Shown: positions 11,750-27,081 of the stretch, in pieces
Numbering within the stretch: position 1 is the stretch's first letter
Layout: every line of letters starts with the position of its first letter
Assembly (NCBI GenBank): GCA_902554705.1
Contig: CACDPP010000009.1
Location: 1 to 63,266, forward strand
From: Paracoccaceae bacterium
Lineage (GTDB): Bacteria > Pseudomonadota > Alphaproteobacteria > Rhodobacterales > Rhodobacteraceae
Direction of reading: 5' to 3'
DNA length: 63,266 nt
Position numbers and translations under genes: made by a program
Notes under the pieces: generated by a model
What the model was told of the DNA's origin: nothing
What the model saw: only the letters and a program-made list of their open reading frames with translations
Database searches by the model: none

Positions 11750-13246
11750 ATGGTAAATAACACGCTTTTATTGCTTGGTGATCAGCTTTTTGATCCCAAA
11801 ATATTAAAGCATAAGGGCTGTAAGCGGGTGTTTATGGCTGAAGATTACGGTCTATGTACTTACGAGAAGCACCACAAACTCAAAATTTATTTATATTTAT
11901 GTGCCATGCGCGAATATAAGGAGGAGTTAGAACGTAACGGTATTAAAGTAGACTATTTCTCTCTAGAGGCTCGTTCAGATGATAAAACTTATATAGAGTT
12001 TTTGGTTGAATTTTTACACGAAAAAAAAATTGATAGAGTAGATATTTTTGAAATTGAAAATAAATCTTTTGAAAAAAATATTTTAGCAGCTTTAGAAAAA
12101 GCTGAAATAAAATACGAGCTTTTTGAAACTCCAATGTTTTTATTTTCTCGCAAGGAATTTGACTCGCTCTATGGCAAAAATAAATCCTTTAGGTTGGGTA
12201 ATTTTTATAAAGTAGGTCGCAAGAAGTTCAACATTCTAGTTGATGGCGATGAAAGTCCTTTAGGTGATCGTTGGTCATTTGATGAAGAAAATAGGAAAAA
12301 AATTCCGGCTAAAACGCACATCCCTGAATTACCCAAATTTAATTTATCAGAGCATCATGACGCGGTTTCAACTATCGTTGAAAAACATTTTTTGGAGCAT
12401 CCAGGAAATACTAAAAATGTTTGGTTTCCCGTAACACGTTCCGGAGCTTTAGAACTTTTGGACGATTTTTTGATTCAGAGATTAGAAAATTTTGGCGCTT
12501 ATGAAGATGCTATGCTAAAGGATCAAAATTTTTTATTTCATAGTTGTATATCTGCAATGCTCAATATCGGATTAATTACTCCAGACATAGTAATTGAAAA
12601 GGTATTAGACTTATTCAGAAAAAATAAAGCTCCTTTGAATTCTGTTGAGGGTTTTATAAGGCAAATATTGGGTTGGCGTGAATTTGTACGTGGTATTTAC
12701 CAACTCAGAGGAACAGAACAGAAAAAATCGAATTTCTGGGGTCACCAAAGGAAACTGAGCCAAAGTTGGTATGATGGTTCAACTGGTTTATTGCCCCTTG
12801 ATGATTGTATTAAATCTGCTCTTAAAGACGGATATAGCCATCACATACCAAGGCTTATGGTCATTTGTAATTTGATGAATATGTGTGAAATTGATCCAAA
12901 ATTTATTTATAAATGGTTTATGGAGATGTATATTGATGCCTCTGATTGGGTTATGATCCCTAACGTTTTTGGAATGGCGACGTACTCTGATGGTGGTTTA
13001 ATGTCGACAAAACCATATACCTGTAGTTCTAATTATATTTTAAAAATGAGCAACTATGAGAAGGGTGCTTGGTGTGACGTAATTGACGGCCTGTATTGGA
13101 GATTTATTCAAAAAAATATTGAATTTTATTCTTCAAATCCGCGCTTATCTTTTCAAACTAGAGTACTGAGCAGAATGAGTGAGGATAGGAAAGTTTTAAT
13201 TTTTAAAAAAGCTGAAGAATTTTTAGAAACTCATACCCAGTCGTAG
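11750..13246 (+). CDS. Cryptochrome/(6-4) photolyase-related protein of the FeS-BCP family, with altered cluster ligands
   Basis: A 498-residue flavoprotein resembling bacterial (6-4) photolyases (PhrB/CryB type, formerly DUF523-like photolyase-related proteins). Evidence includes the N-terminal LLLGDQLF, GWREFVRGIY, YSHHIPRLM at 362-370 (the His pair implicated in repair) and MATYSDGG. PhrB-type enzymes hold a 4Fe-4S cluster with four Cys. Here Cys379 and Cys442 are candidates, but the C-x2-C pair and about a dozen residues after MSNY (433-436) are missing. GGAG precedes the ATG. The 298-base gap to hemG holds only AT-rich DNA and a nine-base direct repeat (GATGCCTAA at 11570 and 11619). Confidence 0.85.
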   Translation: MVNNTLLLLGDQLFDPKILKHKGCKRVFMAEDYGLCTYEKHHKLKIYLYLCAMREYKEELERNGIKVDYFSLEARSDDKTYIEFLVEFLHEKKIDRVDIFEIENKSFEKNILAALEKAEIKYELFETPMFLFSRKEFDSLYGKNKSFRLGNFYKVGRKKFNILVDGDESPLGDRWSFDEENRKKIPAKTHIPELPKFNLSEHHDAVSTIVEKHFLEHPGNTKNVWFPVTRSGALELLDDFLIQRLENFGAYEDAMLKDQNFLFHSCISAMLNIGLITPDIVIEKVLDLFRKNKAPLNSVEGFIRQILGWREFVRGIYQLRGTEQKKSNFWGHQRKLSQSWYDGSTGLLPLDDCIKSALKDGYSHHIPRLMVICNLMNMCEIDPKFIYKWFMEMYIDASDWVMIPNVFGMATYSDGGLMSTKPYTCSSNYILKMSNYEKGAWCDVIDGLYWRFIQKNIEFYSSNPRLSFQTRVLSRMSEDRKVLIFKKAEEFLETHTQS

Positions 13247-16774: not shown

Positions 16775-19420
16775 TTACTTGTTTATAGCCGTCCGTATTT
16801 TTTTACTTAGAAGAGCATAACCAACATCATTCATATGAAGTGGGTCGTCACTGTAAAAAGTATTTTTATCCTCTCCATAAGCCTCGAGCATGGAGGAGTG
16901 TATATCTATAAAATTCCAATTTTCTTTATTTTTAACATGTTCTTCTAAGCAAAAATTGACCTTTTCAATCTCTTGTCTCAGGTGGCGTCTGAATGGACAA
17001 GGTTTGATCGAAATAACAAAAACCTCAAATTTTGGCAGAAGTTCTTTTACCGTTGTAAGAAAATTTTTATAGTCCCTCACAACTTCAGGAACAGATAGAC
17101 CGCTACCTAGATCATTATCCCCTGCATAAATAATAATTTTTCCATTGGTTATGCTGGTGGTTAAAAGCTTTTCTGCAAATGCCTGGCAAGCAGCAAGAGT
17201 TGCACCGCCAAACGCTAAATTAGATAGATATGAGACGCCTAAATCAGTCTTTGCATCTTTCCAAAGTCTTAGAGTCGAACTCCCATACAAAATGAAATCT
17301 TGTTCTTTTGTTTTGCTAATATGGTTTTGGATTTCAACTTCACGGATGTCAGTCCCAAATTCTTCCTCTACAGGGCTGAGCAAACCAACGTTTGTTGACA
17401 ATGTTTGACGTTTTGCCAGAGGCATAACATTTAATTCTACAGCAAGTTCTATTGCTTCCTCAACATATGATCTGAATGTTTTTCTATATTTTGTAAGGAA
17501 GTTTTCTATCTCAGCATCGCTTGAAGTGTCCTCTACCATATCAGACAATCTGAAACCTGGTTTTATTACAGCCGCGTAATTCGCTCTGGAAACAGGAGAG
17601 TCAAAATTTGCAAGAGCTATTGGGACAATTACGGGAGAGGGCTTCAAACGTGCAGCAAGTTTAAAAGCTCCAATTTTCAAAGGCCCTGGAGATGTCTCTG
17701 TTAAATTATCTGGAGTTTCTGATGTTCCTTCTGGAGCAATAACGAGTGGACGCCCTTCGTCAAATGCTTTTTGAGCTTCTATAAACAAACTCTCCTTTCT
17801 GGTTTCCTTTTCAACTTGAGTTTCCTCTAGTCTGTCTGACTCTGGTGTGTGGACTACAATGTTATCAAGCCGCGAGTAGTAACCGTCACGCCAAAACTCG
17901 GTATTTCTACTGGCCCGAACAATTCTTTGTCCTCCATCGCCGTATTTTGGATACAGAATTTTGGTGCTTACAAAATGGCTATCAATCGAAAAAGCGTGAC
18001 CATTTGCCAGAACGTTTTCCAGACATGACGCCAAGTGATTATATATGAAAATGGTCTGGGGCTCTTTAGGCAGATTTTCCATACCTTTTATGACGTAAGG
18101 TACTTGATCAAATGCCCTGGCGAAATCCAATTGAATAAGCTCTTTTAAACTTAATGCGTTTGTACCCTTTTTTGCACTCGTAACGCGGGTATAAATTTTG
18201 TTCAATTGCTCAAAAAAACGATGCTCCCGTTCAACTGGCTTAAGCGCATCTAGCGCCAGTGACCCTACTGTTTTTTCAGCCTCGTTTCCCTTAAGAGCTG
18301 CCTCATAAATGCAGTCGAAACCAAACTTTCTTGTAAACCTGTTGTCAATCATGTGGACTGCAGAATGTAATGAGGATTGTACGGGAATTTTTGATCCATT
18401 AAAGGTAATCAAGGTCTTTAGAAAATTAGATCCTGGATTGTCTGAAAAATTAAAGTGGCTATTAGCTGATTGTTGATAACGACCAATTTGCCAAATTTGC
18501 CTTTGAAATAGAAAAGAAGCGAGTAGGGGTTCGTTTTCCATCATCAATTGCAAATTTTTGCGAGAAAACTTAAGGATTGCCGTGTCGCGGTTCGATTTTA
18601 GGGAGTAGGGGGCTATTAACTTAGAATTTCCGTTTGCCCAAGAAAGGGTAACACCTGGTGTTACAATTGTTCGGGTCTTTTGAATTATTTTATTATTTAG
18701 TTTAAATGAAAAGTTAGTCTCTAAACTACCTGTGAATAAAACTATTAGATCTTCACATGGTTCTCCTTCATTAATGATGACTTCGTTGGGTGGGAATAAT
18801 ATTAATTCACTAAACTTTAAAAGGTCGGGTAATCTGTCGTGGTCAAGTTGAGCAAAAAAAGCACTGTTAATTAGCCTTTTGAAAATATCTCTGTCGCTAT
18901 TAAATGAAACACCATTAAATTTTCTTTGTATCTGCTTTGGTTTCTTTGGTTTGAAATGGCGTGTAGCCCATAAAAGCTCAGTTGATCGGCTAAGAATAAA
19001 GCTCATCAGAAAAGAGCCCCCAATTTGGTCGATCATTAAAAGATCATATAGAACAGAGAGCGGAAAAACTAAAACCTTGCTTTCGTCTTTGGCTGTAAGA
19101 TTTGACATGTACCTGCCCGGTGAATTTAATCCTGATACACCGAGTGGCACAATACGTTCAGTAACAGTCGCAAAAGTAATATTTTGGTCTTCAGCTTCTC
19201 TTGTAAATTCAACTTTTCCGTCAACCAAAAAGTATAGATTTTCCGCTATTTGGTTTTGATGAAAAATAGTATCTCTAGCTTTATAAACTTCAAAGCGACA
19301 ATGTTTATCAATTAAGTTTTTAGCTTTTTCCGAAAGCTGCAGTTGCAAATCAAAATAACGTGTACTTTCATCGAAAAATGAAGAAATATTTTCGTTCATA
19401 TTTTGTAAAATTTTCAACAT
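16775..19420 (-). CDS. Cyclic-nucleotide-binding/acyltransferase/SGNH hydrolase fusion protein
   Basis: An 881-residue multidomain protein. Residues about 36-150 and 190-308 resemble two cyclic-nucleotide-binding domains (NLYFLVDGKVEF; EDLIVLFTGSLET). Residues about 440-640 resemble a PlsC-type acyltransferase with NHLASCLEN at 461-469 and PEGT at 563-566; the usual Asp of the H-x4-D motif is replaced by Leu467 (Glu468 follows). Residues about 705-881 form an SGNH hydrolase with YGSSTLRLW (Ser714), FGGAT (Gly739), AGDND (Asn769) and DPLH (Asp859/His862), all intact. No signal peptide or clear transmembrane helix is seen, so it is probably cytoplasmic or membrane-peripheral. A cAMP-phosphodiesterase-like gene lies directly upstream. 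The true substrate is unknown. Confidence 0.8.
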   Translation of the reverse strand: MLKILQNMNENISSFFDESTRYFDLQLQLSEKAKNLIDKHCRFEVYKARDTIFHQNQIAENLYFLVDGKVEFTREAEDQNITFATVTERIVPLGVSGLNSPGRYMSNLTAKDESKVLVFPLSVLYDLLMIDQIGGSFLMSFILSRSTELLWATRHFKPKKPKQIQRKFNGVSFNSDRDIFKRLINSAFFAQLDHDRLPDLLKFSELILFPPNEVIINEGEPCEDLIVLFTGSLETNFSFKLNNKIIQKTRTIVTPGVTLSWANGNSKLIAPYSLKSNRDTAILKFSRKNLQLMMENEPLLASFLFQRQIWQIGRYQQSANSHFNFSDNPGSNFLKTLITFNGSKIPVQSSLHSAVHMIDNRFTRKFGFDCIYEAALKGNEAEKTVGSLALDALKPVEREHRFFEQLNKIYTRVTSAKKGTNALSLKELIQLDFARAFDQVPYVIKGMENLPKEPQTIFIYNHLASCLENVLANGHAFSIDSHFVSTKILYPKYGDGGQRIVRASRNTEFWRDGYYSRLDNIVVHTPESDRLEETQVEKETRKESLFIEAQKAFDEGRPLVIAPEGTSETPDNLTETSPGPLKIGAFKLAARLKPSPVIVPIALANFDSPVSRANYAAVIKPGFRLSDMVEDTSSDAEIENFLTKYRKTFRSYVEEAIELAVELNVMPLAKRQTLSTNVGLLSPVEEEFGTDIREVEIQNHISKTKEQDFILYGSSTLRLWKDAKTDLGVSYLSNLAFGGATLAACQAFAEKLLTTSITNGKIIIYAGDNDLGSGLSVPEVVRDYKNFLTTVKELLPKFEVFVISIKPCPFRRHLRQEIEKVNFCLEEHVKNKENWNFIDIHSSMLEAYGEDKNTFYSDDPLHMNDVGYALLSKKIRTAINK

Positions 19421-19583
19421 CCCGTTGCCAACCTTTGGATTAGGTACTCTAGTCTTGCTGACATCGAATTGAGTTGAAAATTTTTGGAGCTGTTTATGGA
19501 AAAAAAGTTATTTAGAGGAATTTTCTGTCTAAATTTTATTCAATGAGCCAAAATTTTAGCCGTTTTCTCAAATCAAACTATTT

Positions 19584-20360
19584 TCAGTTTGAAGTTATTA
19601 ATGGCGTCCAAAAACCATTACTCGAACTGTCTAAATATGCAAAACCAGTCGGAAACAATTTAAATCCTTTTGGCGCATTTACTCTTCTGTTGAACGAAAA
19701 TCTTGTGCAGATCGAAGGTGCTGTCACGACTGAATGAATACCTAATGATCCCTGATAAATTCCATGCACATGCCCGCAGAGAATTCTGATTGGTTGGCTA
19801 GCTGCATCAAGACACTCTGAAAGTTCATCTGAGTTCTTAAGCCCTATCTCATCCATGAAAGGAATACCCGTATTTATTGGAGGGTGGTGGATCGCGAGAA
19901 TAATATTTTTTTCAGTAGGTTGATTTAAATTCTCAAATAGTAAGTTTAAACTTTCTGACCGTAGCAAGCCATGGTTTTGACCTTCAACTAATGTATCTAA
20001 GCCAATAATTAAAGTATCACTTGTCTCGTACACCCAATCAAAAAATCCTGAGCTTTGAATATCTATGTCTTTCGCAAAATAATGCATCATTGGTTGACGA
20101 AGGTCGTGATTTCCTGGGATAGCTAATAAGGGTAAATGTAGCTTTTTTAAGATATTATAAGCATCGGAGTAACTTGCTGTACTCCCATCATCACTAATAT
20201 CACCAGTAATAATTACGCCATCAAGATTACCAAAATCTTCCTTTTTACCTAAAATTTTATCAACTGTGTTTTTTAGAATATACTTTGCGTTGAATGCTCG
20301 TGTTAAGGTTGTTTCATCTTCGATGAGATGGAAGTCTGATAAGTGTAAAAATCCTGACAT
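19584..20360 (-). CDS. Calcineurin-like metallophosphoesterase (CpdA-like cyclic nucleotide phosphodiesterase)
   Basis: A 258-residue class III-type phosphoesterase. All metal-binding blocks are present: LSDFH near the N-terminus (Asp and His), GDISDDG, GNHD, the AIHHPP His and GHVHG. The closest recognisable type is CpdA-like 3',5'-cAMP phosphodiesterase. The gene sits 163 bases upstream of the cyclic-nucleotide-binding fusion protein on the same strand, which supports a cyclic-nucleotide role by context. Another phosphoester substrate is possible. Confidence 0.8.
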   Translation of the reverse strand: MSGFLHLSDFHLIEDETTLTRAFNAKYILKNTVDKILGKKEDFGNLDGVIITGDISDDGSTASYSDAYNILKKLHLPLLAIPGNHDLRQPMMHYFAKDIDIQSSGFFDWVYETSDTLIIGLDTLVEGQNHGLLRSESLNLLFENLNQPTEKNIILAIHHPPINTGIPFMDEIGLKNSDELSECLDAASQPIRILCGHVHGIYQGSLGIHSVVTAPSICTRFSFNRRVNAPKGFKLFPTGFAYLDSSSNGFWTPLITSN

Positions 20361-21345: not shown

Positions 21346-22158
21346 TTAAATAATAGCGCCACGAACCTTAGCGGAAACCCATTCGGAGATAAAAACAGTA
21401 ACTAAAATAACAATCAAGATTAAAGATACTTGAGTCCAGGCCAGTGTATTTAATGAGCCATTTAACTGTAATCCAATGCCGCCGGCTCCAACTAATCCTA
21501 AGATAGTAGATTCTCTAATATTGATATCCCAACGGTAAATGCCCACTCCAGCTATGGTTGGAAGCACCTGAGGTAATATTCCAAATATCATTTTTTGCGG
21601 ACCACTAGCACCAGTTGCTTCGATAGCCTCTACTTGTGTATGGTCTATTTCTTCGATGGATTCATAAATTAATTTTGCGCAGAAACCAACTGATCTAAGC
21701 CCAATAGCAATTGTACCTGCCAAAACACCAGGTCCCAAAATAAAAACTAAAATTAAAGCCCAAATTAATGAATTCACAGATCTAGATGATACTATGATAA
21801 ACAGGCCGATTGTACGAACAACAATATTTGGAGTGGTATTGCGAGCTGTTGCGAATGCAACCGGTACGGCAATAGCCATAGCTATAATTGTTCCAATTGT
21901 TGCGATATTTATTGTATCCCAAACAGGTTTCCACAACTTGTTCATATATGACCATTTTGGAGGTACCATGCGTGAGCCGATGTCTGCAGCTTGGGTTGGT
22001 GCGTCGGTCACAAAAAACCATACCGTTTTTTCAGATATCATCTGCCAAGCATACATAATAACGGCTATGCCGATTAACCAGCAAACCCATCTTATCCACT
22101 GCTCTTTGGAGGTGCGAAGCCGCCAAGTTTCAATACCATTATTTGTACTTGCTGGCAT
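21346..22158 (-). CDS. phnE: Phosphonate-type ABC transporter permease PhnE (second copy)
   Basis: Inner-membrane permease of a phosphonate-family importer. About six transmembrane segments are visible. The EAA-like loop lies around EAIEATGASGPQKMIFGILPQ (part), followed by YRWDINIRESTILGLVGAGG, a strong PhnE signature. I chose the ATG at 22158, giving 270 residues: its A is the last base of the preceding gene's TAA, so the two are translationally coupled. Upstream in-frame starts would run into the previous gene. It forms a heterodimeric pore with the other PhnE. Confidence 0.9.
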   Translation of the reverse strand: MPASTNNGIETWRLRTSKEQWIRWVCWLIGIAVIMYAWQMISEKTVWFFVTDAPTQAADIGSRMVPPKWSYMNKLWKPVWDTINIATIGTIIAMAIAVPVAFATARNTTPNIVVRTIGLFIIVSSRSVNSLIWALILVFILGPGVLAGTIAIGLRSVGFCAKLIYESIEEIDHTQVEAIEATGASGPQKMIFGILPQVLPTIAGVGIYRWDINIRESTILGLVGAGGIGLQLNGSLNTLAWTQVSLILIVILVTVFISEWVSAKVRGAII

Positions 22159-22973
22159 TACTGCACCCACTTTCTGAAAAAGCTGGATGTATATTCCATA
22201 CACATCACAATTAAGATTATTATAATAAGTATTGCTGCTGCTGTATCGAATTCATATCTAGAAAAAGATGTGTTTAGAGTTGCACCTATGCCGCCACCAC
22301 CGACAATGCCGACAACTGCAGACTCGCGAAAATTAATATCTAGGCGATAAATGGATAGTCCTATCATTCGTGGCATGACTTGAGGTTGTATAGAATAATT
22401 CACCCATTGAAACCAATTTGCACCTGTTGCTTTTACGGCTTCAGCTTGTGAAGCACTTGAGTTTTCAATGTCTTCAGCGAGTAATTTTGCATAAAAACCA
22501 ATTGTACCAAGTGACAATGCAACAAAGCCAGCAAATGGTCCAAAACCAAATAATTTTACGGCAAATATCGCGAGTATTATTTCAGGAAAGGTCCTTGAAG
22601 CTGCTATTATGCCCCGACAAAATAAATAGACCCAGGCTGGTGCCAAGTTGCGGGCAGCGCCGAGGCCAACTGGGATCGATAAAGCAATCCCTGCGACTGT
22701 AGATATAATAGCCATCCAGATGCTTTCAGCAATTCCTTCCCAAAGTACCCCGCGGTTGTCTGAAAAATTTGGAGGAAAAAATGAATCCAAAAACCTTTGA
22801 GCTCTAGGTAGCCCTTCTTTCACGCGCTCCAAATCGATATTCATTGTCCCAAGAGCTGCGGCAAGGTAAATTGCTCCACCCACAATTATTAACCATCTTA
22901 CAAAGCTATTCTTTATAAATGGGGCTTTTTTCCAACTGGAAGGGTAACTGCCTGTTTCTGAAGAGTCCGTCAT
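22158..22973 (-). CDS. phnE: Phosphonate-type ABC transporter permease PhnE (first copy)
   Basis: Paralogous permease of 271 residues with about six transmembrane segments, the coupling loop EAVKATGANWFQWVNYSIQPQ (part) and IYRLDINFRESAVVGIVGGGG. It has a long polar N-terminus before the first helix. The ATG begins two bases after the phnC stop and the TAA overlaps the next permease start, so phnC-phnE-phnE are translated as a tight unit. Confidence 0.9.
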   Translation of the reverse strand: MTDSSETGSYPSSWKKAPFIKNSFVRWLIIVGGAIYLAAALGTMNIDLERVKEGLPRAQRFLDSFFPPNFSDNRGVLWEGIAESIWMAIISTVAGIALSIPVGLGAARNLAPAWVYLFCRGIIAASRTFPEIILAIFAVKLFGFGPFAGFVALSLGTIGFYAKLLAEDIENSSASQAEAVKATGANWFQWVNYSIQPQVMPRMIGLSIYRLDINFRESAVVGIVGGGGIGATLNTSFSRYEFDTAAAILIIIILIVMCMEYTSSFFRKWVQ

Positions 22974-22975
22974 GT

Positions 22976-23770
22976 TTAAAACTCTTCCTCATCATCGTCA
23001 TCTTCGTCTGTTGACTTGATAGTCGCAGACCAATCTTCCTCACCATAAATTCTTGTTAAAACTTCGGGTGTAAGACCTTCGGGTTTTCCATCATAGACAA
23101 CCGAACCTAATTCTAAGCCTACAACACGCTGAGAAAACATCTGAGCGAGGAAAACGTCGTGAATGTTTATTATAGCCGTAAGTCCTCTTTCGGAACATAG
23201 CTCTTGAATCAATCTCATTATTTGCCGCGATGTTTTTGGATCAAGGCTTGCGGTTGGCTCATCAACAAGCAACAGATCTGGATTTTGTATTAGTGCACGA
23301 CAGATGCCCACGCGCTGGCGTTGCCCACCGGAAAGTTCATCTGCACGTTTATCTGCCATATGTTTTAAGCCAACTCTGTCTAATAGGCGATAAGCTTCCT
23401 GAATATCTGCACTTGGAAATTTTCTGAAATAGCTGCGCCAAAACCCAACATAACCAAGACGGCCTGACAAAACATTTTCCATAACTGTCAATCGCTCAAC
23501 CAAAGCATACTCTTGGAAAATCATACCCATTCTCCGTCTTGCTTTTCGCAAAGCTGACGAAGACAATTTTGTTAGCTCTGTTCCTTTCAGGACAACACTT
23601 CCTGAGGTTGGTTGTACAAGCCGATTTACACAGCGAATTAAAGTAGATTTTCCTGCACCTGATGGTCCGATAAGGGCCAAAACCTGCCCTTTGGGAATCT
23701 CCAAAGTAACTCCTTTAAGAGCTAACTCTCCAGTATTATATTTCTTGGTTAATTCGGCAAGTTGCAGCAT
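22976..23770 (-). CDS. phnC: Phosphonate-type ABC transporter ATP-binding protein PhnC
   Basis: ATPase of the importer. Walker [10 protein letters not shown] is at about residues 36-44, the Q-loop near IFQEY, the signature LSGGQRQR and Walker [13 protein letters not shown] follow, and the switch His is in NIHDV. The 264 residues are normal in length except for an unusual acidic C-terminal tail ([10 protein letters not shown]). A stable hairpin separates it from phnD upstream. Confidence 0.93.
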
Positions 23771-23804
23771 TTGGTACCTGTATGTCTAATTGATTTATTG
23801 CGCT

Positions 23805-23830
23805 AGTCAGGCCCTATAATGGGCCTGACT
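23805..23830 (-). promoter_or_regulatory. Perfect 10-bp stem-loop between phnD and phnC
   Basis: AGTCAGGCCC (23805-23814) and GGGCCTGACT (23821-23830) pair perfectly around a six-base loop. The hairpin lies 25 bases after the phnD stop and 34 bases before the phnC start. On the coding (minus) strand no T-run follows, so it is more likely a stability or attenuation element that favours the binding-protein message than a full terminator. Confidence 0.7.
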
Positions 23831-23855
23831 TTATTTTCTTATGACTTCGTCTGGA

Positions 23856-24833
23856 TTATTTACAGTCGTAACTAACGCCGTTTGCTGTATCGATGCCTCT
23901 AATAACAGCCCAGTCGTTTTTATGACGAATGCCGATGAAACGGTCAGCTTTTGCAAACTCTTTTTTGAAAGTAGCATCTGACTCAAAGTCAAAGCTCCAA
24001 AAAGCGCTTTTGATTTTTGCAACAAGCTCTGGATGTAAATTATGCGCGTGGCCATATCCAGTTGTTGGGAATGTTGCCGATTTGTATACTATTTGCAGTA
24101 CGTCTTTTTCTATAACACCGCGGCGCTCCATTCGCTGCCGTACCGAGTTGGCTATAGCAGCAACTTCGTAGTCACCATTGTAAACGCCCAAAATAGAGTT
24201 ATCGTGCTTTCCAGAAAATGTTGGCGTAAAATCTTTGTCTGCCAATAGGCCAAACTCACCTTTAAGGATTGCGGAAGGCGCTTTAAAGCCAGAATTAGAT
24301 GTTGGTGACGTAAAGGCCATTGTTCGACCCGCAATATCTGCTGGAGATGTTATATCACTGCCTTTTTTGACAATAATTTCCATCTCATAACCGAATTTAC
24401 CATCGTCGTATGCCATCATTCCAAAAGGTACAAAGCCAGCACAACTTACAGCTATTGGATTTGATCCTGTGTTGAAGCCAGCGACATGCAGTCTGCCTGA
24501 ACGCATTGCTTCAAGCTGTGCAGCATTTGACTCGACAGGGAAAAATACCACTTTTCGGTCAGTCATTTTTTCCAGATGGTCTGTAAATGGCTTCCAAACA
24601 TTTGCGTATACAGCAGGATCCTCAACAGGAGTATACGTGAATATGATTGTTTTAGGATCAACCCAATCCTTTGGATCAAGCGGCAAATCAGCAACTTGGT
24701 CTAAATTTCTGTCGCAATAAGCCTCATCCAGAGTTCCTCTGTGACAGTCTTCGGCGACTGCTTGCGTAACAAAACTTGCACACAAGATAACGGCAGCCGA
24801 AATAGCGGCGCCTAGTTTCATTTTAGCGATCAT
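23856..24833 (-). CDS. phnD: Phosphonate-type ABC transporter periplasmic binding protein PhnD
   Basis: Substrate-binding protein of the importer, 325 residues with a signal peptide cut near AVAE. Features are IIFTYTPVEDPA, the DHLEKMTDRKVVF region, GSNPIAV and the ligand-loop SPTSNSG typical of PhnD/PhnS-like proteins. I chose the ATG at 24833 because GGAGAGG precedes it by a few bases; an ATG at 24899 has no such site and would hide the signal peptide. The ligand could be a phosphonate, phosphite or a phosphate ester. No C-P lyase or phosphonatase gene is in the window. Confidence 0.9.
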   Translation of the reverse strand: MIAKMKLGAAISAAVILCASFVTQAVAEDCHRGTLDEAYCDRNLDQVADLPLDPKDWVDPKTIIFTYTPVEDPAVYANVWKPFTDHLEKMTDRKVVFFPVESNAAQLEAMRSGRLHVAGFNTGSNPIAVSCAGFVPFGMMAYDDGKFGYEMEIIVKKGSDITSPADIAGRTMAFTSPTSNSGFKAPSAILKGEFGLLADKDFTPTFSGKHDNSILGVYNGDYEVAAIANSVRQRMERRGVIEKDVLQIVYKSATFPTTGYGHAHNLHPELVAKIKSAFWSFDFESDATFKKEFAKADRFIGIRHKNDWAVIRGIDTANGVSYDCK

Positions 24834-24911
24834 TTGTCCTCTCCAGTATTTATCGATTCTCAGCAATAGGTTAAGCGGCAAGTAATTTTCAAACAACATA
24901 ATTATACAGTT

Positions 24912-25866: not shown

Positions 25867-27081
25867 ATGAGTATTTTGCATGGCATGCGGGTTTTTGAAA
25901 GCTCAGCTTTTGTTGCTTTACCTCTTGCAGGCATGCAATTAGCTCAAATGGGTGCTGAAGTTATCCGGTTTGATAATTTAGGGGGAGGCCTTGATCACTT
26001 CAGAAGACCGCTCGCTCCTAACGGCGAAAGTTTATTCTGGCACGGGCTCAATAAGGGTAAAAAATCTTTTGCTGTAAATTTAAAGTCTGAAAAAGGGCGT
26101 GAACTGGTAAGTGACTTAATCACCTCAGATGGTGATGATTCAGGATTGTTCATAACCAATCTGAGAGTGTCGGGTTGGACGGATTATGAAAGCCTTAAAA
26201 GAAAGCGAGCCGATCTGGTAATGGTTACTTTGAAAGGTGATCGACATGGGGGGCCGGAAGTTGACTATACTGTTAACCCATCGCTTGGAATACCCCATAT
26301 TACTGGCGCTGAGGGCAGCACAGAACCTGTTGCAAATGCTCTTCCCGCCTGGGATTGCGTAGCAGGTAATATGGTCGTCTCTTCACTACTTGCAGCTGAG
26401 CGAGATCGTTTGCGAACTGGAAGGGGTCAGGATGTGGAGTTCGCTTTAAAAGATGCTGCGGCTGCAGTAATTGGTCACCTTGGAATGATAGGAGAGGCGA
26501 CAATTTACGATCAACAAAGAGGAAAATCGGGCAATTCTGTATATGGAGCCTATGGCCAGGATTTTGAGTGTGCTTGCGGTGGTCGAGTTGTTGTAATTGG
26601 TCTTACCTTGAGGCAATGGCGTGGCCTATTAAAAGCAACAGATAAAGCACAGGAAATCAAAAACCTTGAACAGAAATTAAATATTTCCTTAGATGACGAA
26701 GGGCATCGTTGGGAACATAGGCATAAAATAAATGACGTTTTTCGGTCATGGTTTGCAAAGCGAAAAATTTCTGATTTTGAGAAAAGTTTTAATGATTTTG
26801 GTCTCACCTGGTCTCGATTTAGAACAACAAAAGAAGCAATTACTGAGGACAAAGATACATTCACTGATAATCCAATGTTTGAAACATTAAATTTTGAAGG
26901 GATTGGCCAATACATGGTTCCTAGATCGCCATTAGAATTTTCTAATCATGATACTTTGCCTGCCCAAAAACCCCCGAAGCTTGGTCAGCACACTGAGGAA
27001 ATTTTGGGTGACATAATGAAGTTGGGGTCAGGTGAGATTGGGGCACTTTTTGATAGCGGAACCGTTGGTTCTTCCAAATAA
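25867..27081 (+). CDS. CaiB/BaiF family CoA transferase, mesaconyl-CoA C1-C4 transferase (Mct)-like
   Basis: A class III CoA transferase of 404 residues. From memory it resembles 2-methylfumaryl-CoA isomerase (Mct) of the 3-hydroxypropionate bicycle over much of its length: the N-terminal ILHGMRVFESSAFVA, FWHGLNKGKKS, EVDYTVNPSLG, LPAWDCVAGNM, ALKDAA, GAYGQDFE, DNPMF and GIGQYMVPRSPL. The conserved catalytic Asp of the class is probably in the ALKD or PAWD segment. GGGAG precedes the ATG. No other gene of that pathway is in the window, so a role in C5 acyl-CoA (mesaconate or itaconate) metabolism is an alternative. Confidence 0.75.
   Translation: MSILHGMRVFESSAFVALPLAGMQLAQMGAEVIRFDNLGGGLDHFRRPLAPNGESLFWHGLNKGKKSFAVNLKSEKGRELVSDLITSDGDDSGLFITNLRVSGWTDYESLKRKRADLVMVTLKGDRHGGPEVDYTVNPSLGIPHITGAEGSTEPVANALPAWDCVAGNMVVSSLLAAERDRLRTGRGQDVEFALKDAAAAVIGHLGMIGEATIYDQQRGKSGNSVYGAYGQDFECACGGRVVVIGLTLRQWRGLLKATDKAQEIKNLEQKLNISLDDEGHRWEHRHKINDVFRSWFAKRKISDFEKSFNDFGLTWSRFRTTKEAITEDKDTFTDNPMFETLNFEGIGQYMVPRSPLEFSNHDTLPAQKPPKLGQHTEEILGDIMKLGSGEIGALFDSGTVGSSK

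Follow-up and report, generated by a model that had tools for sequence, protein, structure and literature searches.

The DNA analysed here, referred to below as the window, is a stretch of 63,266 nucleotides (nt) from a Paracoccaceae bacterium (assembly GCA_902554705.1, contig CACDPP010000009.1). On its minus strand, positions 16775..19420 encode an 881-residue protein, hereafter the fusion, which was recognized from the list of open reading frames (ORFs), from Pfam and from its recurrence in other genomes. In this protein two cyclic-nucleotide-binding domains (CNBD1 and CNBD2), a helical region, a domain with the fold of glycerol-3-phosphate acyltransferases (GPATs) and PlsC, and an SGNH hydrolase domain follow one another. 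Residue numbers are those of the 881-codon ORF. CNBD1 occupies approximately residues 30-160 (18941..19333, minus strand, as are all parts of the fusion) and carries a degenerate cassette, G94-V95-S96-G97 followed by P101-G102-R103-Y104, whereas CNBD2, at approximately residues 175-315 (18476..18898), is without a recognisable cassette Glu or Arg; both were delimited by Pfam, alignment columns and the tandem CNBD fold. The helical region, seen in the AlphaFold secondary structure, spans approximately residues 320-425 (18146..18463) ahead of the acyltransferase-like fold. The GPAT/PlsC-fold domain itself lies at approximately residues 430-660 (17441..18133; Pfam, Foldseek and alignment columns) and contains N461-H462-L463, D480 and P563-E564-G565. 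The SGNH hydrolase domain, at approximately residues 685-881 (16778..17368; Pfam, alignment columns and relatives in the PDB), contains G713-S714-S715, G738, G767-D768-N769, D859 and H862. The Pfam matches exceed chance and all lie above the cut-offs of their families: cNMP_binding, in two stretches (PF00027; 2.2e-15, 56.8 bits against 27.5), Lipase_GDSL_2 (2.6e-11, 44.8 bits against 32.9) and Acyltransferase (PF01553; 4.4e-6, 27 bits against 23).

On the same strand, 163 nt upstream of the fusion, a gene at 19584..20360 encodes a 258-residue metallophosphoesterase of the Rv0805/GpdQ/CpdA superfamily, here called the phosphodiesterase (PDE). A preliminary description of this DNA had suggested that a cyclic nucleotide could be sensed by the fusion and removed by a CpdA-like neighbour. 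The two ORFs lie exactly where it had placed them, and its assignment of two cyclic-nucleotide-binding domains and an intact SGNH hydrolase was borne out by Pfam, by the CNBD fold found with Foldseek and by the presence of all the SGNH blocks. The relation it drew between the two genes was not, as described below.

We examined the distribution of the fusion (labels of the form G### denote genomes and L### loci). Among 121 relatives, the fusion is present in six, all within the genus (16 genomes) and at 85-100% identity; a seventh genome matches through the SGNH part only. Genome contigs were scanned for six peptide patterns taken from the fusion of the window, a type of scan that misses distant members. 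As a result, 55 loci encoding relatives were found, five in Rhodobacteraceae and 50 elsewhere with 42-47% identity, nearly all across most of the length; the record titles of these 50 name uncultured alphaproteobacteria or Pelagibacteraceae. In these 50 loci, the fusion is directly preceded by a PF04298 zinc peptidase gene in 41 (approximately 30-50 nt away) and by a PF04134 thiol-disulfide (DCC1-like) gene in eight (approximately 210 nt away), and in L046 the contig ends there. The eight DCC-type loci are assigned to Pelagibacteraceae by record titles, and their copies share 55-57% identity with those of the order described next and 44% with the window. In an alignment-based search of the class, 10 of 385 genomes matched, with the whole fusion in four (the genome of the window, G232, G189 and G293), an interrupted copy without SGNH in G255, and SGNH alone in five. 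All three genomes of f117, the family of G189, matched, as did 56 of 162 in the order of G232, where some copies are cut by contig ends and many genomes are incomplete. We call this order HIMB59-like, presuming the name from those of single-amplified genomes; the 12 of its 56 matches that were typed all group with the zinc-peptidase-type loci. Throughout the phylum, 17 of 398 genomes matched, three with the whole fusion (that of the window, G735 and G750), two with a CNBD-PlsC protein without SGNH (G622 and G625) and 12 with SGNH alone. The fusion of a sensor with acyl/lipid domains, as suggested in the preliminary description, is therefore a real conserved family, found at full length in four alphaproteobacterial groups and in one other family of the phylum. 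Small marine genomes, among which the protein recurs, seldom retain multi-domain proteins of 870 residues without need.

Concerning the SGNH part (PF13472), blocks I, II, III and V, with their Ser, Gly, Asn and Asp/His, are intact in all 14 fused copies and in one separate copy. The latter is from Persicobacter sp. JZB09 (Bacteroidota, CP012852.1), in which a CNBD-PlsC protein of 655 residues (L133:6902-8869) and an SGNH protein of 209 residues (L133:8871-9500) are encoded by neighbouring genes separated by 1 nt. When inspected by eye, homologous sequence did not continue beyond the end of either frame, and the split therefore does not look like a frameshift. That one pair occurs in both fused and split states suggests that CNBD-PlsC and SGNH work as a pair, and no other observation speaks as strongly for their joint action. 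The split pair (L133:6902-9500) sits on a megaplasmid.

The PlsC-like domain is the best conserved part of the protein. Comparisons of the window protein with six HIMB59-like and Pelagibacteraceae copies gave 65-70% identity for this domain, against 26-32% for CNBD1, 35-38% for CNBD2 and 40-44% for SGNH. When residues 326-668 were modelled alone from 25 sequences, the predicted local distance difference test score (pLDDT) was 78.1 and the predicted template-modelling score (pTM) 0.77, better than in the model of the whole protein. Foldseek matched this model to the plastid GPATs 8ia1 (4.1e-6), 1iuq and 1k30, to PatA (6.8e-4) and to PlsC from T. maritima (5kym, template-modelling (TM) score by target 0.59). 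The acyltransferase-like assignment of the preliminary description thus stands on the Pfam score and the GPAT/PlsC fold, but the standard HX4D catalytic motif is missing from the window protein, with Leu in place of the Asp at +5. The PEG sequence of motif III is conserved in all 17 copies, and NHL is present. In the model, the NHL strand and a loop are followed by a helix with Asp480 as its second residue (local pLDDT approximately 66-75). The spacing between positions 462 and 480 is constant in 18 of 18 aligned copies. Fourteen of 17 copies carry both H462 and D480, as does the Persicobacter copy. Thirty-five columns are invariant in the 14 copies from outside f117, and five of them differ in f117 (F433, H462, D480, R499 and E508). 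The chance that a given pair falls among these five is (5/35)(4/34) = 0.017, for a pair that was chosen post hoc and with f117 representing a single lineage; the joint loss of H462 and D480 is suggestive only. It is possible, judging from these columns, that His462 and Asp480 form a working dyad, HX17D, which may substitute for HX4D.

In the sensor part, Foldseek matched the N-terminal region to regulatory subunits of protein kinase A (PKA), including those of Trypanosoma (best 6rsx, 1.4e-11, TM by target 0.41), with the tandem CNBD fold. CNBD1 follows the family pattern G-[VIW]-S-[AG]-x-x-x-P-x-R. The cassette Glu, which contacts the ribose 2'-OH in cyclic-nucleotide-binding domains, is replaced by Val, Ile or Trp in 17 of 17 copies, that is, in all 16 aligned copies having the region and, as Trp, in Persicobacter (L112 is gapped). 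Arg103 is conserved in the same 17 (16 of 16 and Persicobacter), and the small cassette residue is conserved too. By our own count, Arg103 presumably lies one residue nearer than the cassette Arg of PKA. In CNBD2, neither the Glu nor the Arg is found in the alignment. The preliminary description had named the absence of the phosphate-binding cassette from both domains as a refuting observation; CNBD1 retains an invariant Arg and has lost the Glu, CNBD2 shows no cassette, and the CNBD1 loop is modelled with a pLDDT below 50. These residues leave a phosphate-bearing ligand possible, and cAMP or cGMP could be that ligand. In PKA RI-alpha, Ala202 and Arg209 are key to the binding of cyclic nucleotides versus nucleosides (PMC10959531).

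A DPRP-type photolyase is encoded in the window on the plus strand (11750..13246), 3.5 kb from the fusion, and genes of the same family lie near the fusion in many HIMB59-like loci and in the DCC-type loci. The distance is 549 bp in all eight DCC-type loci. In the zinc-peptidase-type loci the photolyase is 3.6-4.8 kb away in 27 of 41; several of the other 14 end too early, and L044, L059 and L061 have no photolyase despite nearly 8 kb of upstream sequence. L030, the sole DCC-type locus scanned with Pfam, has stress-type genes within approximately 8 kb of the fusion. Its segment L030:1-14581 resembles a photo-oxidative-stress cluster, with genes for the photolyase, the DCC1-like protein, the fusion, FAD_binding_7, MsrA, an inositol phosphatase family protein, TspO, SOD, DUF3833, a cyclopropane synthase and DUF1365. 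DUF1365 is the domain of UfaO, a protein that takes part in furan fatty acid synthesis and was investigated in chrR mutants (PMC7380195), and the photolyase gene phrA is controlled by RpoE in singlet-oxygen stress (PMC5830050). Judged by these neighbours, repair or remodelling of membrane lipids under photo-oxidative stress would be an attractive role in Pelagibacteraceae; the suggestion is weak for other groups.

Taking into account the conserved architecture, we consider the chances about evenly balanced that the fusion acts on its own, probably in the cytosol, as a sensor-gated enzyme for the deacylation and reacylation of lipids. The tandem CNBD module would sense a small molecule, perhaps neither cAMP nor cGMP, and would gate the PlsC-fold acyltransferase-like domain and the SGNH acyl hydrolase, acting together. 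The SGNH part would strip an acyl chain from the lipid, leaving a lyso-lipid for the PlsC part to bind or to re-esterify with an activated acyl chain. The likely task would be turnover or repair of membrane lipids, which may be linked to photo-oxidative stress in Pelagibacteraceae. An enzyme of this kind would provide small-genome ocean bacteria with a compact control point on their membrane lipids. It would also raise the question of the ligand of the CNBD subtype G[V/I/W]S...P.R and widen the motif rules for acyltransferases. Several observations weigh against this reading. The TM scores by query of the PlsC-part matches are modest (0.25-0.42), and the Asp of HX4D is found at +5 in two of 17 copies (L030 and L050), the position being otherwise variable. 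With HX4D unconserved and His462 absent from f117, some copies of the PlsC part may be without catalytic activity. The model of the whole protein (pLDDT 68.8, pTM 0.43) is too weak for domain contacts or gating. The split pair is one single record, and the pairing is not universal: the uninterrupted L107 and L108 encode a protein that lacks SGNH, and no SGNH was found in the surrounding 19 kb. As for the photolyase, the tight neighbourhood occurs in one group only. Among the genus loci with 8 kb on the photolyase side, three of five have it and L011 and L012 do not, L121 has the photolyase and no fusion, and no photolyase of this cluster was found in the examined flanks of f117 and other-family loci. 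A bolder version of the deacylation-reacylation reading, in which one soluble protein runs a Lands cycle on a single chain, removing and replacing phospholipid acyl chains with an HX17D dyad under a non-canonical CNBD ligand and so repairing light-damaged membranes, seems to us improbable as a whole.

One alternative is that the PlsC-like part has no catalytic activity and serves only to present a lipid, leaving SGNH as the sole enzyme of a sensor-gated esterase or lysophospholipase. The lack of a conserved HX4D would fit, as would f117, in which His462 and Asp480 are lost while SGNH is intact. However, this part is the most conserved domain, and members without SGNH keep it together with the His and Asp480, and we hold this alternative to be doubtful rather than remote. 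It is also conceivable that the fusion is gated by cAMP or cGMP from class III cyclases of the usual kind, encoded at other sites in the genome, with no role for the PDE. The resemblance of the tandem CNBDs to PKA regulatory subunits, the invariant Arg103 and the retained small residue of CNBD1 are consistent with this. Class III cyclases are present in the window genus, with five matches in the genome of the window; of the 18 genomes chosen for the search, 13 gave matches. Of the 162 genomes of the HIMB59-like order, 39 have both fusion and cyclase, 17 the fusion only, 13 the cyclase only and 93 neither (Fisher p 1.7e-13, uncorrected for kinship and incompleteness; G583, below the cut-off, was left out of the table), a co-occurrence that speaks for a link. 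Against it stand the replaced Glu in all 17 copies and the absence of a cassette from CNBD2. In addition, among the typed HIMB59-like genomes (12 of 56), class III cyclases occur in five of seven of the first fusion subclade but in none of five of the second (G476, G501, G513, G547 and G550). None was found either in the eight fusion-bearing Pelagibacteraceae genomes (0.8-1.0 Mb, incomplete), and the fusion-bearing G293, G735 and G750 (99-100% complete) have no class III or class I match. Class I adenylate cyclase was found in none of the 18 chosen genomes. We therefore regard gating by these cyclases as unlikely. Cyclic di-GMP was rejected as a general CNBD ligand, GGDEF domains being present in five of the 18 genomes, in none of the seven of the window genus and in none of the five HIMB59-like ones.

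The partnership between the fusion and the PDE proposed in the preliminary description rests on their adjacency on one strand and on a superfamily that includes Rv0805 and CpdA. The superfamily placement holds, with Metallophos at 54.3 bits against a cut-off of 21.5 and Rv0805 (4.9e-18) and the phosphohydrolase 2dxl (3.7e-15), which we take to be GpdQ, as nearest relatives in the PDB. The protein contains SDFH, GDISDDG, GNHD, HHPP and GHVH, presumably the metal-site motifs of the family. The term CpdA-like nevertheless applies only loosely, as the score against the CpdA 3',5'-cAMP phosphodiesterase model NF008359 is 106 with a cut-off of 225, and that against SpdA 97 with a cut-off of 400. Recurrence of the pair, which had been named beforehand as a test, was found within the genus, where the PDE adjoins the fusion in all six fusion-bearing genomes (11 loci, several being one genome twice), even where it has diverged to 55% identity (G007). 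It was not found outside, the PDE cluster being present in none of 50 loci (flanks from less than 1 kb to 8 kb). Moreover, in three of the 10 fusion-less genomes of the genus (G002, G009 and G011; 77, 70 and 90% complete), the order phnD-C-E-E-HAD-PDE-anmK is intact without the fusion. At these empty sites (L121-L123) PDE and anmK are 67-68 nt apart, a spacer unlike the 163 and 138 nt that flank the fusion. In L012 (G007), the PDE is the last gene in a run of GlpR-, UgpC-, UgpB-, UgpA- and UgpE-like genes, named by best NCBIfam scores that are all below the equivalog cut-offs. PDE homologs in L124 and L125 (36-39% identity) likewise terminate GlpR-ugp-like runs, and a homolog in L127 and L128 terminates another ATP-binding cassette (ABC) transporter run. 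Because the cluster persists without the fusion in the genus, is absent beside the fusion elsewhere, and has homologs of the PDE ending ugp-like runs, we judge the PDE to be a neighbour and probably no partner of the fusion, and a sensor paired with a nucleotide-removing CpdA-like enzyme to be very improbable. The tempting pairing with a cAMP phosphodiesterase is corrected accordingly.

The PDE looks like a member of a separate cluster for the import and hydrolysis of organophosphorus compounds. Upstream of the fusion on the minus strand, profile matches identify, beyond the PDE, a hydrolase of the HAD-IIA family TIGR01459 (20442..21272) belonging to this cluster and the phosphonate/organophosphate ABC transporter genes phnE, phnE, phnC and phnD (21346..24899). 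Ugp is an importer of glycerol-3-phosphate and glycerophosphodiesters. In L012 the HAD gene is separated from the fusion by a whole GlpR-ugp-like run (L012:2090-7763) with the PDE last, where the window has phn-HAD-PDE only. PhnCDE takes up phosphate as well (PMC6469041). The simplest reading of the cluster would be import, cleavage by the PDE and then by the HAD phosphatase, and release of free phosphate.

The composition of the fusion (GC content 37.6%) lies between those of the PDE (36.4%) and anmK (41.0%) and gives no sign of recent foreign origin. The fusion has no match among phages. A plasmid origin was also rejected: 51 plasmid records match, and among those listed Persicobacter alone covers at least 80% of the query, the nine others matching in the SGNH part only. 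A search for a promoter and a terminator of its own was uninformative, with 12 promoter-like sites where 11.0 were expected and four terminator-like sites where 2.8 were expected. The start codon of the fusion is uncertain (19399-19420). The ATG at 19420 is not conserved in L011, whose ORF opens with TTG; HIMB59-like copies start near residue 6-8, and the window ORF has an in-frame ATG at residue 8. Downstream of the fusion, the segment 13313-16636 holds cell-wall recycling genes, anmK by Pfam and others that we take from their sequences to be murQ-like and nagA-like. At 25867-27081 a protein near 2-methylfumaryl-CoA isomerase is encoded (TIGR04253, 461 bits against a cut-off of 725).

A literature search of titles and abstract starts, with most subscription journals outside its coverage, gave no paper describing the architecture of the fusion, in agreement with the preliminary description; the family is uncharacterised, and although its domains are known ones, no description of their combination was found. 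Individual parts of it can be compared with known systems. The PDE is similar to GpdQ, Rv0805 and CpdA in sequence and metal-site motifs, and differs in that its gene context is organophosphate uptake. NTE (PNPLA6), in the architecture we presume for it, also has CNBD-fold domains before a lipid-deacylating serine hydrolase. NTE uses the patatin fold, whereas the fusion has SGNH and the GPAT/PlsC fold, with no patatin match in Pfam up to E 1. AT3-SGNH O-acyltransferases such as OafB also join an acyltransferase to an SGNH domain (PMC7448272, PMC9833829), but AT3 (PF01757) is an unrelated membrane domain, with no match in the fusion up to E 1. The cAMP-independent PKA regulatory subunit of Trypanosoma likewise has tandem CNBDs with an altered cassette and is reported to bind nucleosides; it has lost the Arg and acquired a Glu (PMC10959531), whereas the fusion has kept an Arg and lost the ribose Glu. 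With PlsC and the plastid GPATs (PF01553; 5kym, 1iuq, 1k30 and 8ia1), the fusion shares the fold, the NH after the motif I strand, the PEG motif and the VPI..NFD block. Unlike them, it is without a conserved HX4D, has a fixed H462-X17-D480, and is joined to CNBDs and an SGNH domain.

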